64,000 nt of DNA from Halogeometricum rufum (GTDB lineage: Archaea; Halobacteriota; Halobacteria; Halobacteriales; Haloferacaceae): positions 868,001-932,000 of the forward strand of contig NZ_FOYT01000002.1 in assembly GCF_900112175.1 (NCBI RefSeq), given 5' to 3'. The first letter of the stretch is position 1. Each line of letters starts with the position of its first letter. Under the pieces are notes generated by a model that was not told the origin of the DNA, did no database searches, and was given only the letters and a program-made list of their open reading frames with translations. This document shows, piece after piece, positions 38,208 to 41,309 of the stretch. A program made the position numbers and the translations under genes.

Positions 38208-38387
38208 GCGTGGCGTTGGTCATAGCTCCCGAATAAGCCTTCCTAAGTACGGATACTACGTGTGGATGCCTCTCACTCGTCTCTCTGAACGTTATTGAGT
38301 CTGAGACGCTTAAATAACTACTTGTGGAAATCAGATCAGAAAGAGGGCATTGAGTACTATTGTAGTGTCTATCTTTCAGAGTCATGT

Positions 38388-38500
38388 GAACTACCCTACC
38401 CTACTCGCTCACCGCTGACGCGGTTCGCTCCTTGAGGGTAGGGCTTCCTGCTTCTATGACGCGCTTTGCAGATACCGAATCGGTATCCACAGGGAGCGCA
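38388..38500 (-). ncRNA. Predicted omega-RNA (reRNA) 3' scaffold of tnpB 1
   Basis: The hairpin arms CCCTACCCT and AGGGTAGGG (38394-38443) enclose a loop with an inner stem ACCGC...GCGGT. The hairpin spans the tnpB stop codon. In characterised TnpB systems the RNA guide starts at the 3' part of tnpB and runs past the right end into flanking DNA, which supplies the guide. Here the guide would be the flank that follows GTAGTTCAC. The 5' limit is not visible. Confidence 0.45.
38394..38443 (-). repeat. Right-end hairpin of element 1
   Basis: Stem CCCTACCCTCA / TGAGGGTAGGG-like arms (minus strand, 38394-38443), with the inner GCGGT/ACCGC stem. It includes the tnpB stop codon TAG at 38401-38403. 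The same shape occurs in the orphan copy at 39867-39930. Confidence 0.65.
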
Positions 38501-39645
38501 GTCTCCACAGGCGTTGATTCGGAGTATCCCACTCCTACGTCTTCGAGGCCGCGAGAAAGGATGTTCCACGCCGCGTTCGCATCTCTGTCCGCCTCGAACC
38601 CGCAGGCAGGACAGGAGTGTTCACGCACCCACAACGGTTTCTCCGTCGAGACGCCGCACGACGCGCACTCCTTGGTCGTGCCGCTCGGGTTGACCGCGAC
38701 AAAGTGCGTTCCCTCACGTTTGCACTTGTATTCGAGCAACGAGAGGAACGTCCGCCACGCGGCAGATGCCGTGTTGCGGCTATTCGACGGCGACTCCATC
38801 ATTCCCTTTACGTTCAGGCCTTCTACCGCTACGAGGTCGTACTCCCGAGCGTAGTAGTTCGAGAGTTTGTGCAAGAAGTCGCGGCGCTTTCGCTTGAGGG
38901 TGGAGTGGCGTTCAGCCACGACCTGCCGTTGTTTCTCCCAATTCGCGGAGCCGTGTTCCTTCCGCGAGAGGTCGCGCTGTTCGCTTTCGAGCCGTTCGCG
39001 CTCGTCAGAGAGGTCGAGCGACCCGACCGCCGTGCCGTCGGTGTCGTGAGCGTACTTGAGAATCCCCACGTCGATGCCGACGCACTTCTCGGGGTTTTCG
39101 GGCTTCGCGGGTGGTTCGCGGTCCATTTCGACGCCGAACGTGGCGAACCACTCACTCGTCGGTTCCTTCTTGAGCGTGACCTGCTTGAGTGTCGCGTCGT
39201 CAGGGATGGCGCGGTGGAGACGAATCGGTATATCTCCGAGTTTCGAGAGTGATAGGACAGTCTGACCGCCCTTCTTGTCGAGCTTGAAGCCAGACTGACT
39301 ATACGTGAAACTGCGGAACTCCCGTGGTGGCTTCCACTTGAGTTGGCCGACGCCGTAGCCGTTCTCCTTGAGTTTGGAGAGTCCTTTGAGGTTGTCGAAC
39401 AGTCGTTCAACGACGGTTTGGAGAACTTTCGAGTACACGTCGGAGAGGTCGTCCCACCACTGTTTGAGGTCGGGCAGTTCCGACCGCAGGGTGGTCATGG
39501 ACGGCAGTTTGCCGTGTTCGTCTTGGTACTCGTTGAGGCGGTAGAGCGTGTGGTTGTAGAGTTGCCTACAAATGTCTCGGTGGCGGTCCAACTCCTTGCG
39601 GTGGGAGTCGGACGGCTTGAGACGGTACTTGTAGGCGTAGTACAT
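38401..39645 (-). CDS. tnpB: TnpB, RNA-guided nuclease (element 1)
   Basis: 414 residues. The N-terminus MYYAYKYRLKPSDSHRKELD is the usual TnpB start. RuvC motifs are intact: RuvC-I Asp in GIDVGILKYA, RuvC-II Glu in VAVEGLNVKGM, the Zn finger CASCG...CPACG (about 325-350) and RuvC-III Asp in DRDANAAWNIL. The last residues PTLKERTASAVSE are encoded by the right-end hairpin. It should cut DNA guided by its omega-RNA. It is preceded by a 39-codon ribbon-helix-helix gene with a 3-nt gap. Confidence 0.9.
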   Translation of the reverse strand: MYYAYKYRLKPSDSHRKELDRHRDICRQLYNHTLYRLNEYQDEHGKLPSMTTLRSELPDLKQWWDDLSDVYSKVLQTVVERLFDNLKGLSKLKENGYGVGQLKWKPPREFRSFTYSQSGFKLDKKGGQTVLSLSKLGDIPIRLHRAIPDDATLKQVTLKKEPTSEWFATFGVEMDREPPAKPENPEKCVGIDVGILKYAHDTDGTAVGSLDLSDERERLESEQRDLSRKEHGSANWEKQRQVVAERHSTLKRKRRDFLHKLSNYYAREYDLVAVEGLNVKGMMESPSNSRNTASAAWRTFLSLLEYKCKREGTHFVAVNPSGTTKECASCGVSTEKPLWVREHSCPACGFEADRDANAAWNILSRGLEDVGVGYSESTPVETALPVDTDSVSAKRVIEAGSPTLKERTASAVSE

Positions 39646-39648
39646 CCG

Positions 39649-39768
39649 TTACTCCCGCTCCTCGATTAGTTCGTCCAGTTGCTCACGGATGAACGACGAG
39701 AGGTTAAGGTGGTGGTCCTCTATCCACTCGTCTTGGTCCTCTCGGATGGTGATTGTCTTCCGCTTCAC
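39649..39768 (-). CDS. 39-residue ribbon-helix-helix (CopG-like) protein
   Basis: GTG at 39768 and TAA at 39649-39651. The sequence KRKTITIREDQDEWIEDHHL then NLSSFIREQLDELIEERE has the RHH pattern: a short beta strand (KTITIRE), a first helix (QDEWIEDHH), then the N-L-S-S-F-I turn and second helix. RHH dimers bind DNA through the strand. It starts 3 nt upstream of tnpB and is translated from the same strand, so it is probably a tnpB-operon regulator. Right in front of its GTG lies an operator-like repeat (39771-39797). Too short for common gene callers. Confidence 0.7.
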   Translation of the reverse strand: MKRKTITIREDQDEWIEDHHLNLSSFIREQLDELIEERE

Positions 39769-39770
39769 TG

Positions 39771-39797
39771 TAATGCACGTTATGCACGTTACACGTA
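39771..39797 (-). promoter_or_regulatory. Repeated palindromic operator before the RHH-tnpB genes
   Basis: Plus strand: atgcacgtt (39773-39781), atgcacgtt (39782-39790), then acacgt. TGCACGTTATGCA (39775-39787) has TGCA half-sites 9 bp apart, an arrangement suited to an RHH dimer-of-dimers. It begins 2 nt upstream of the RHH start codon, the usual place for autorepression. Confidence 0.6.
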
Positions 39798-39865
39798 CAA
39801 AACCTCGGTCGCGTGGGCCTGTGGGCCGGGTGGCGAACGTGTTTGAGAACTGTGCGGCACTGTAT

Positions 39866-39939
39866 CCCCTCCCTACTGCGCTACTCGGTTGCTTTGCTCC
39901 CTGCGTTGCTCCTTGAGGAGGGGGGCTTAGTGCCTCGAT
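39866..39939 (-). pseudogene. Remnant 3' end of a third tnpB with its omega-RNA scaffold
   Basis: Read on the minus strand, 39937-39873 encodes IEALSP- and then, after a one-base shift, -LLKEQRREQSNRVAQ and a TAG stop. Tnp 1 ends IEAGSPTLKERTASAVSE, so the remnant is the same C-terminus in decayed form. The DNA forms the same hairpin (CCCCTCC...GGAGGGGG) as element 1. The rest of that gene, which should lie to the right, is missing; element 2 now occupies that side. Confidence 0.6.
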
Positions 39940-39959
39940 TCAGTTAAGAAAAAAGCACG

Positions 39960-39973
39960 CATAACCGGTTATG
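39960..39973 (+). promoter_or_regulatory. Perfect 14-bp palindrome before tnpB 2
   Basis: CATAACCGGTTATG at 39960-39973, perfectly symmetric, 10 nt upstream of the tnpB ATG (39984). It is flanked by A-tracts (gttaagaaaaaagc upstream). It may be a left-end hairpin, or an operator over the transcription start. Confidence 0.6.
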
Positions 39974-39983
39974 AAGCCAAAAA

Positions 39984-41258
39984 ATGAGTCGGACCATCCG
40001 AACCTTCGAGGCCACGATTACGAACCAGCGACAGGTTCGTGACGACCTCGACCAACTCGGATGGGCCGCCTCAAAACTCTGGAACGTCAGTCGCTACTAC
40101 GCACAAGAACAGTGGGACGAAACGGGCGAGATTCCCGATGACGGGAAACTCAAAGCCGAACTCAAAAGCCACGAACGCTATACGGACTTACATTCTCAGT
40201 CCAGTCAGCGCGTTCTCGAAGAACTCGCTGAAGCGTTCAACGGTTGGTACGGCAAGCGTCGGAACGGCGACGACCGTGCCCGACCGCCCGGCTACCGCAA
40301 AAACGGAGACTCCCACCCGCGTTCAACTGTGTCGTTCAAAGCGGCTGGCTTCAAGCACGATGCACAGTTCACCCGTGTTCGTCTCTCAAAAGGTCGCAAC
40401 CTCAAAGAACACCGTTCGGACTTCATTCTGTGCGAGTACCAGACTCGCCCGGATGTTGACCTGACCGAGTGGGATATTCAACAGGTTCGTGCCGTCTACA
40501 AACGAGACGAGTGGCGACTCCAGTTCGTCTGTCGCACCACCATCGACCCGGAACCGCCGGGCAATGGGGTCGCTGGTGTTGACCTCGGGATTTGCAACTT
40601 CGCCGCCGTCTCGTTCGGTGGCGAATCGGTATTGTATCCCGGCGGCGCACTCAAAGAGGACGAATACTACTTCACGAAGAAGAAGGCTAAGTGCGATGAT
40701 TCTTCGTCCCGAGAGGCGATTCGGCTTGACCGGAAGCGGACGGGTCGCCGGACGCACTTCTTGCACGCACTCTCGAAAGCAATCGTAGAGGAGTGCGTCG
40801 AACGAGGTGTCGGGACGCTTGTCGTTGGCGACCTCGGCGGCATCCGAGATGATGACGAGAACGGCGAAGCTCGGAATTGGGGCGACCACGGCAATCTCGA
40901 CTTGCATGGGTGGGCGTTCGACCGATTCACGACGCTACTCGACTACAAGGCTGAATCGGAAGGCATCGACGTGGAATCGGTTTCGGAACGCAACACGTCG
41001 AAGTCGTGTTCGTCGTGTGGTCGCACCGACGACAATCAGCGAGTTGAACGCGGGTTGTACGTGTGTGAGAAGTGCGACACGGTTGCGAACGCGGACGTGA
41101 ACGGCGCGGAGAACATTCGACAAAAGGTACTCCCGAGTCTCGCCACGGATGGCGGCGATAGGGATAACGGCTGGTTGGCACAGCCAGCGGTTCACCTGTT
41201 CGACCGTAGTGAGGGTCGTTTCGCTCCACGAGAACAGGTCGTGAACCGCGAACCGTAA
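39984..41258 (+). CDS. tnpB: TnpB, element 2, with an unusual RuvC-II
   Basis: 424 residues. RuvC-I Asp is in GVDLGICNFAAV, the zinc ribbon is CSSCGRTDDNQRVERGLYVC ...EKCD and RuvC-III Asp is in ADVNGAENI. The RuvC-II position reads TLVVGDLGGIRDDDENG, where most relatives have VVEDL: the Glu is Gly here. The next Glu is in DDDENGEARNWG. This subfamily may use a relocated acidic residue (such rearrangements are known), or the nuclease may be inactive. N-terminus MSRTIRTFEATITNQRQVRD and a typical long helical domain are intact. Confidence 0.85.
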   Translation: MSRTIRTFEATITNQRQVRDDLDQLGWAASKLWNVSRYYAQEQWDETGEIPDDGKLKAELKSHERYTDLHSQSSQRVLEELAEAFNGWYGKRRNGDDRARPPGYRKNGDSHPRSTVSFKAAGFKHDAQFTRVRLSKGRNLKEHRSDFILCEYQTRPDVDLTEWDIQQVRAVYKRDEWRLQFVCRTTIDPEPPGNGVAGVDLGICNFAAVSFGGESVLYPGGALKEDEYYFTKKKAKCDDSSSREAIRLDRKRTGRRTHFLHALSKAIVEECVERGVGTLVVGDLGGIRDDDENGEARNWGDHGNLDLHGWAFDRFTTLLDYKAESEGIDVESVSERNTSKSCSSCGRTDDNQRVERGLYVCEKCDTVANADVNGAENIRQKVLPSLATDGGDRDNGWLAQPAVHLFDRSEGRFAPREQVVNREP

Positions 41259-41309
41259 TATCCCAACGCGGTCGGGAATCCTCGCCCTTTAGCGCGGGGA
41301 GGATGTCAA
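41200..41309 (+). ncRNA. Predicted omega-RNA 3' scaffold of tnpB 2
   Basis: Hairpin TCCTCGCCC / GGGGAGGA (41279-41304) lies about 20 nt after the tnpB stop and ends before GTCAA. By analogy with known TnpB loci the guide would be the first bases after the right end (from about 41310). The 5' limit is not visible. Confidence 0.4.

Follow-up and report, generated by a model that had tools for sequence, protein, structure and literature searches.

A 39-codon minus-strand gene of the ribbon-helix-helix (RHH) type, found directly before a tnpB gene in Halogeometricum rufum, is a real gene that recurs before tnpB across Halobacteria and that, together with its operator, takes the place of the transposase gene tnpA in otherwise near-identical IS200/IS605-type elements. 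The operator boxes are conserved and co-vary with the DNA-facing strand of the RHH protein. The small gene most likely encodes a CopG-like autorepressor of an RHH-tnpB operon, a reading in which binding, repression and co-transcription are inferred, there being no binding, expression or ribosome data.

The stretch of DNA analysed (the window, 64,000 nt of contig NZ_FOYT01000002.1) carries the RHH gene at 39649..39768 on the minus strand, with a GTG start and a TAA stop (stop codon at 39651-39649), and its product is MKRKTITIREDQDEWIEDHHLNLSSFIREQLDELIEERE. The ATG of tnpB lies at 39645, leaving 3 nt between the RHH stop and the tnpB start. A second copy in the same genome (G000), locus L002, has an identical layout, its RHH and TnpB proteins being 74% and 71% identical, respectively, to those of the window copy. 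A profile built on these two copies matches 76 of the 170 genomes of the family (E<=0.001), a few of the genomes being matched through other RHH proteins, and a wider profile finds matches in other families of the order and in a handful of members from elsewhere in the phylum. The frame is under purifying selection (median dN/dS 0.18 over 1052 pairs), with most variation at third codon positions. tnpB follows nearly all close RHH homologues at about -4 to +8 nt. In a set of 82 loci the RHH gene is the immediate 5' neighbour of tnpB in 35, with one further remnant, at a gap of -1 to +4, and many additional loci show the same arrangement. More distant TnpB types are also preceded by RHH (L208, L213, and L214); some distant RHH matches with no adjoining TnpB (L137-L140 and L215-L217) were left out. 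In the 28 matching plasmid records the frame is usually unannotated and otherwise mostly labelled "hypothetical". The initial annotation, made from sequence alone, had claimed this frame and its 3-nt distance from tnpB, and both held; its refuting condition, that the small frame would not be conserved among related tnpB elements, was checked and failed. Almost every close homologue is found only a few nucleotides from a tnpB. It had missed the second genome copy, a weaker third operator box upstream, and the position of the gene in the tnpA slot, including its alternation with tnpA.

Individual loci present further variations. AT-rich genomes from other groups in the phylum (L203-L214) hold many RHH copies, some of them before different TnpB subfamilies (the three loci named above). 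The C-terminal half of RHH is partly duplicated in tandem between RHH and tnpB at L113 and L155, while at L111 the RHH gene and operator are intact and tnpB is lost after approximately 20 codons. Haloarchaeal-type elements were also found on contigs titled as bacterial metagenome-assembled genomes (Syntrophomonadaceae, L013; Halobacteroidaceae, L086), which are probably binning errors.

A near-minimal CopG/Arc-type fold had been proposed for the product, and this is supported, at weak scores, by structure prediction. The AlphaFold model of the 39-mer (pLDDT 86) shows an extended N-terminal stretch followed by helices 10-19 and 23-38, that is, the predicted strand-helix-helix fold of the RHH (CopG/Arc) type at about 40 residues. 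RHH proteins make up nearly all of its structure matches, among them CopG in its DNA-bound form (1ea4, one of the best), TacA1, AmrZ, and VapB, with Z of 2.2-3.9, low values as expected for 39 residues. The window 39-mer found no match in Pfam, NCBIfam or PDB sequence searches, and the RHH profile none among PDB sequences. The CcdA profile matched 32 of 54 RHH members weakly (best E 2e-4), the window protein not being among those with a Pfam match. Among relatives without TnpB, the nearest are RHH antitoxins encoded next to PemK/MazF toxins. The sites upstream of these antitoxins include TACACA, which is the reverse-complement form of TGTGTA, the box that accompanies RKN strands in the RHH-tnpB loci. 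Paralogous pairs of an RHH antitoxin and a PemK/MazF toxin occur at L132-L136, with TACACA repeats in most of their promoters, and it is possible that such pairs were the source of the RHH-TnpB cassette.

The tnpB gene of the window (38401..39645, minus strand) encodes 414 aa with the RuvC motifs GIDVG, VAVEGL, and DRDANAA intact, starting at residues 190, 272, and 353. The protein matches Pfam OrfB_IS605 and Cas12f1-like_TNB and NCBIfam guided_TnpB (288 bits), and its RuvC residues and zinc finger identify it as an IS200/IS605 (IS1341-type) TnpB. On the same strand, TTAAC lies at the outer left edge of the element (39943..39947; TTAGC in most relatives) and is a presumed target/TAM motif; a left-end hairpin region (39860..39925) is shared with TnpA-type elements. 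The right-end hairpin (38386..38440) is presumed to be the end of the omega RNA scaffold; the element ends ...GTAGTTCAC at 38386, where conservation among relatives stops, and a guide would therefore run from 38385 downwards. No Rfam family for an omega RNA matched at the RHH-linked tnpB of the window, where the conserved right-end hairpin is present. In both element types the left-end hairpin resembles the right-end hairpin in the same orientation. A second TnpB of another type (39984-41258, plus strand) stands head-to-head with the RHH element and has no slot gene; at the RuvC-II position it has LVVGDLGG, without the Glu, and Rfam sot0042 matches its omega RNA at 41125-41300. A perfect palindrome, CATAACCGGTTATG, lies at 39960-39973, 10 nt before the second tnpB start, and is possibly a promoter-proximal operator.

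The HUH transposase gene tnpA expected of an autonomous IS200/IS605 element is missing here, and RHH fills its slot instead. Across 78 loci with TnpB relatives of >=300 aa, the gene immediately 5' of tnpB is TnpA in 42, RHH in 32, and DUF2080 in 2, and no locus has two slot genes. In the set of 80 TnpB relatives plus the two G000 copies, too, never more than one of the three is present, and the slot is decayed or unclear at two loci. On the TnpB tree, the occupant of the slot changes at least 3-4 times if only strongly supported branches are counted and 12-16 times under parsimony, many branches being weakly supported. The two kinds of element have the same ends, and an RHH-linked TnpB and a TnpA-linked one can be up to 95.6% identical; the slot is therefore an exchangeable cassette. 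Both element types have the left end TTAGCTGAAT..AGGCGCTAAGCC..hairpin..GGGGATACAGCGCC and the right end ..GTAGGGTAGTTCAC, so that the RHH-linked elements share their subterminal hairpin ends with TnpA-bearing elements of the haloarchaeal IS200/IS605 kind (e.g., ISH12 type). The two types diverge at the promoter, and the swapped cassette is therefore promoter plus gene, RHH and its operator replacing TnpA and its promoter. In phage records only distant TnpBs were found, and the sole viral contig with a relative has DUF2080 in the slot.

The initial annotation had further read two direct atgcacgtt repeats with TGCA half-sites as the gene's own operator, and this is supported by conserved boxes at a 9-bp pitch that co-vary with the protein strand, binding itself being inferred. 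On the minus strand, a proximal GTGCAT box (39773..39778) stops 4 nt short of the GTG start codon, a middle GTGCAT box (39782..39787) lies 9 bp from it, and the weaker upstream box TACGTGTA (39790..39797) is located approximately 7 bp further on; some subgroups have three boxes at an exact 9-bp pitch. The unstranded sequence TGCACGTTATGCA (TGCA n5 TGCA) is matched exactly at 39774..39786. With <=2 mismatches allowed, this is the sole match in the 64-kb window; approximately 0.26 would be expected by chance, which is not significant in a single sequence, and the significance of the operator rests on its relatives, namely the conserved frame (dN/dS 0.18) and the lag-9 signal in dissimilar operators. 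In 46 distinct RHH loci the boxes immediately precede the start codon, at about 4-30 nt from it. Lag peaks inside one group prove little, as with the peaks at 5, 8, and 13 that TnpA-type promoters owe to shared ancestry, and the test was therefore run on dissimilar operators: among 23 operators less than 60% alike, lag-9 identity was 0.424 vs 0.276 for shuffled sequences (reached by 0 of 2000 shuffles; z=8.4). The signal is absent from 37 distinct TnpA-type promoters. The motif occurs once in the window; the only other exact operator-like site in the genome was rejected, as it lies inside an unrelated coding region.

The boxes change with the strand of the RHH protein predicted to face the DNA. 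RKTITIR accompanies GTGCAT, RTTITLR accompanies TGCATA with GTATAT, RKNITIR accompanies GCGCAT, RKNISIR accompanies TGTGTA, and RKTISIR accompanies TTACGTAA. The second copy, L002, carries a TGTGTA operator. Operator distance tracks strand distance when helices are controlled for (partial r 0.34, p<=0.001), whereas the reverse comparison gives 0.08 (p about 0.1); the Mantel p-values treat related loci as exchangeable, and ancestry is not fully removed. A natural chimera (L068/L162) places the RTTITLR strand on the helices of another group, and its operator is of the RTTITLR-group type, not that of the helix group. RHH and operator also travel together: TnpBs that differ by only 6-7% are paired with RHHs that differ by 30-36% and have other operators, and RHHs differing by <=2 residues precede TnpBs 36% apart. 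Copies within one genome showed no significant avoidance of shared recognition strands (0.159 vs 0.211, P=0.21). Co-variation of operator and strand is the only support, and an indirect one, for the inference that a dimer binds DNA via its paired strands.

The closest functional model is CopG of plasmid pMV158 (PDB 1b01, 1ea4), the autorepressor of the copG-repB operon (PMC5717011), which is likewise an RHH protein of about 40 residues encoded by the first gene of an operon, before a mobile-element enzyme. The CopG operator consists of TGCA n5 TGCA half-sites, 9 bp apart. The CopG strand KRLTITL aligns with KRKTITI of RHH, and the boxes and the 3-nt gap satisfy the CopG-type layout (first operon gene, operator at its own promoter), with co-transcription inferred. 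Unlike CopG, RHH is archaeal and alternates with tnpA, its downstream gene encodes an RNA-guided nuclease where that of CopG encodes a replication initiator, and its recognition residues and boxes vary between subgroups; sequence similarity is too weak to prove descent. In the proposed mechanism, at least two RHH dimers would sit next to each other on the boxes with the 9-bp pitch, which would cover the promoter (its location being inferred) and the start of a near-leaderless RHH-tnpB operon, and enough repressor would shut off the synthesis of both RHH and TnpB. When the element reaches a naive cell, which has no repressor, TnpB would be made in a burst; at low copy number, too, the operon would be open. 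TnpB would afterwards be held low, as CopG does for copG-repB. These establishment kinetics, and the need of TnpB for such control once tnpA is gone, are as inferential as the binding, repression and co-transcription. The suggestion that the gene is a self-regulating switch on an RNA-guided nuclease cassette is thus supported as a reading, with binding, repression and a shared transcript unproven, and activator, dual or translational roles of RHH cannot be excluded.

The strongest rival, itself unlikely, casts RHH as an antitoxin-like partner: it would bind TnpB, alone or in complex with its RNA, and hold the nuclease in check, DNA binding being secondary. In its favour, the closest relatives without TnpB are antitoxins of PemK/MazF toxins, DUF2080 in the same slot comes from a validated antitoxin family (PMC10440598), and TnpB is a DNA nuclease. 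RHH-fold type II antitoxins (CcdA, RelB, VapB, and MazE-like with PemK/MazF) also resemble RHH in being encoded by a small gene upstream of a nuclease gene with an operator at the promoter, and in the weak CcdA profile match; RHH differs from them in having no toxin-binding tail and in having TnpB as its partner, with neutralization not shown. Against the rival, the protein has 39 aa and no partner-binding tail beyond the RHH fold, its cousins being about 40 residues longer. Near-identical RHHs precede TnpBs that are 36% apart, as noted above. Once the strand is taken out, TnpB distance shows no more than a weak link to the helices (0.12, p 0.096), and this shuffling of RHH-operator pairs among TnpBs is evidence against a specific RHH-TnpB contact. 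It is very unlikely that RHH assists transposition by marking the element or its ends, so helping a TnpA encoded elsewhere to mobilize it in trans. RHH does occupy the tnpA slot, and the ends are the same as in TnpA elements, but the boxes lie at the promoter and not at the ends, the motif is found once in the window, and a search of the window's genome for a TnpA of this type came back empty, though without a control. Less likely still is that the frame matters only for translation, as a leader coupling ribosomes to the tnpB start through overlap or a gap of a few nucleotides and a GGAG-like sequence inside its end; the gap of -4 to +8 nt in nearly all loci fits this, but protein-level conservation and the coupling of strand to operator require a working protein. 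A chance small ORF with chance repeats beside tnpB, for which it can be said that the 2-mismatch TGCACGTTATGCA match is not rare in one sequence (0.26 expected), is all but excluded and already refuted by conservation, given the recurrence in 76 of 170 family genomes and in other families of the order at a dN/dS of 0.18.

The autorepressor reading has a parallel in DUF2080, whose genes fill the same slot before tnpB with a conserved inverted repeat, GTATATCCAAAGGATATAC, just before the start as a putative operator. This family of transposase-associated proteins resembles RHH in being a small DNA-binding-type protein with an operator of its own, and differs in belonging to another protein family and in having inverted, not direct, repeats; a DUF2080 domain has been validated elsewhere as an antitoxin (PMC10440598). 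DUF2080 genes were seen at L182-L202, L159, L083, L086, and L263, several of them ahead of a tnpB and one located on a viral contig; many have a conserved inverted repeat of the GTATATCCAAAGGATATAC type directly before the start codon. The slot and inverted repeat of DUF2080 suggest that the transposase gave way to antitoxin-type repressors on more than one occasion, repression being inferred. The presence of two unrelated antitoxin-type DNA binders in the place of tnpA suggests, as an inference, that selection acts on the control of TnpB or of the operon. A bolder reading, which we stop short of favouring, is that antitoxin-type autorepressors from two or more unrelated families (RHH and DUF2080), each with its own operator, have repeatedly taken the place of tnpA in haloarchaeal IS200/IS605 elements. 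TnpB would then form a toxin-antitoxin-like nuclease cassette under its own regulation, whose persistence would depend on TnpB action and not on transposition of its own.

Transcription control linked to TnpB has a precedent in TldRs, TnpB-derived repressors in which a dead TnpB is the regulator. Unlike these, RHH-linked TnpB keeps its catalytic residues, and the candidate regulator is a separate protein. The initial annotation had considered the cassette a possible addition to known TnpB biology, and no link of RHH or CopG proteins to TnpB was found in the literature searched, although most subscription papers lay outside it and prior notice is possible. Most haloarchaeal tnpB genes have no tnpA beside them (35 of 38 in Natronomonas), a fact recorded without explanation in 2011, when stringent copy number control was suspected (PMC3119063). 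A dedicated repressor in the tnpA slot would be a concrete, testable answer to both the persistence and the control of tnpA-less tnpB. The repressor slot would define which TnpBs are under self-control, and its approximately five natural protein-operator pairs may provide material for reading the RHH recognition code.
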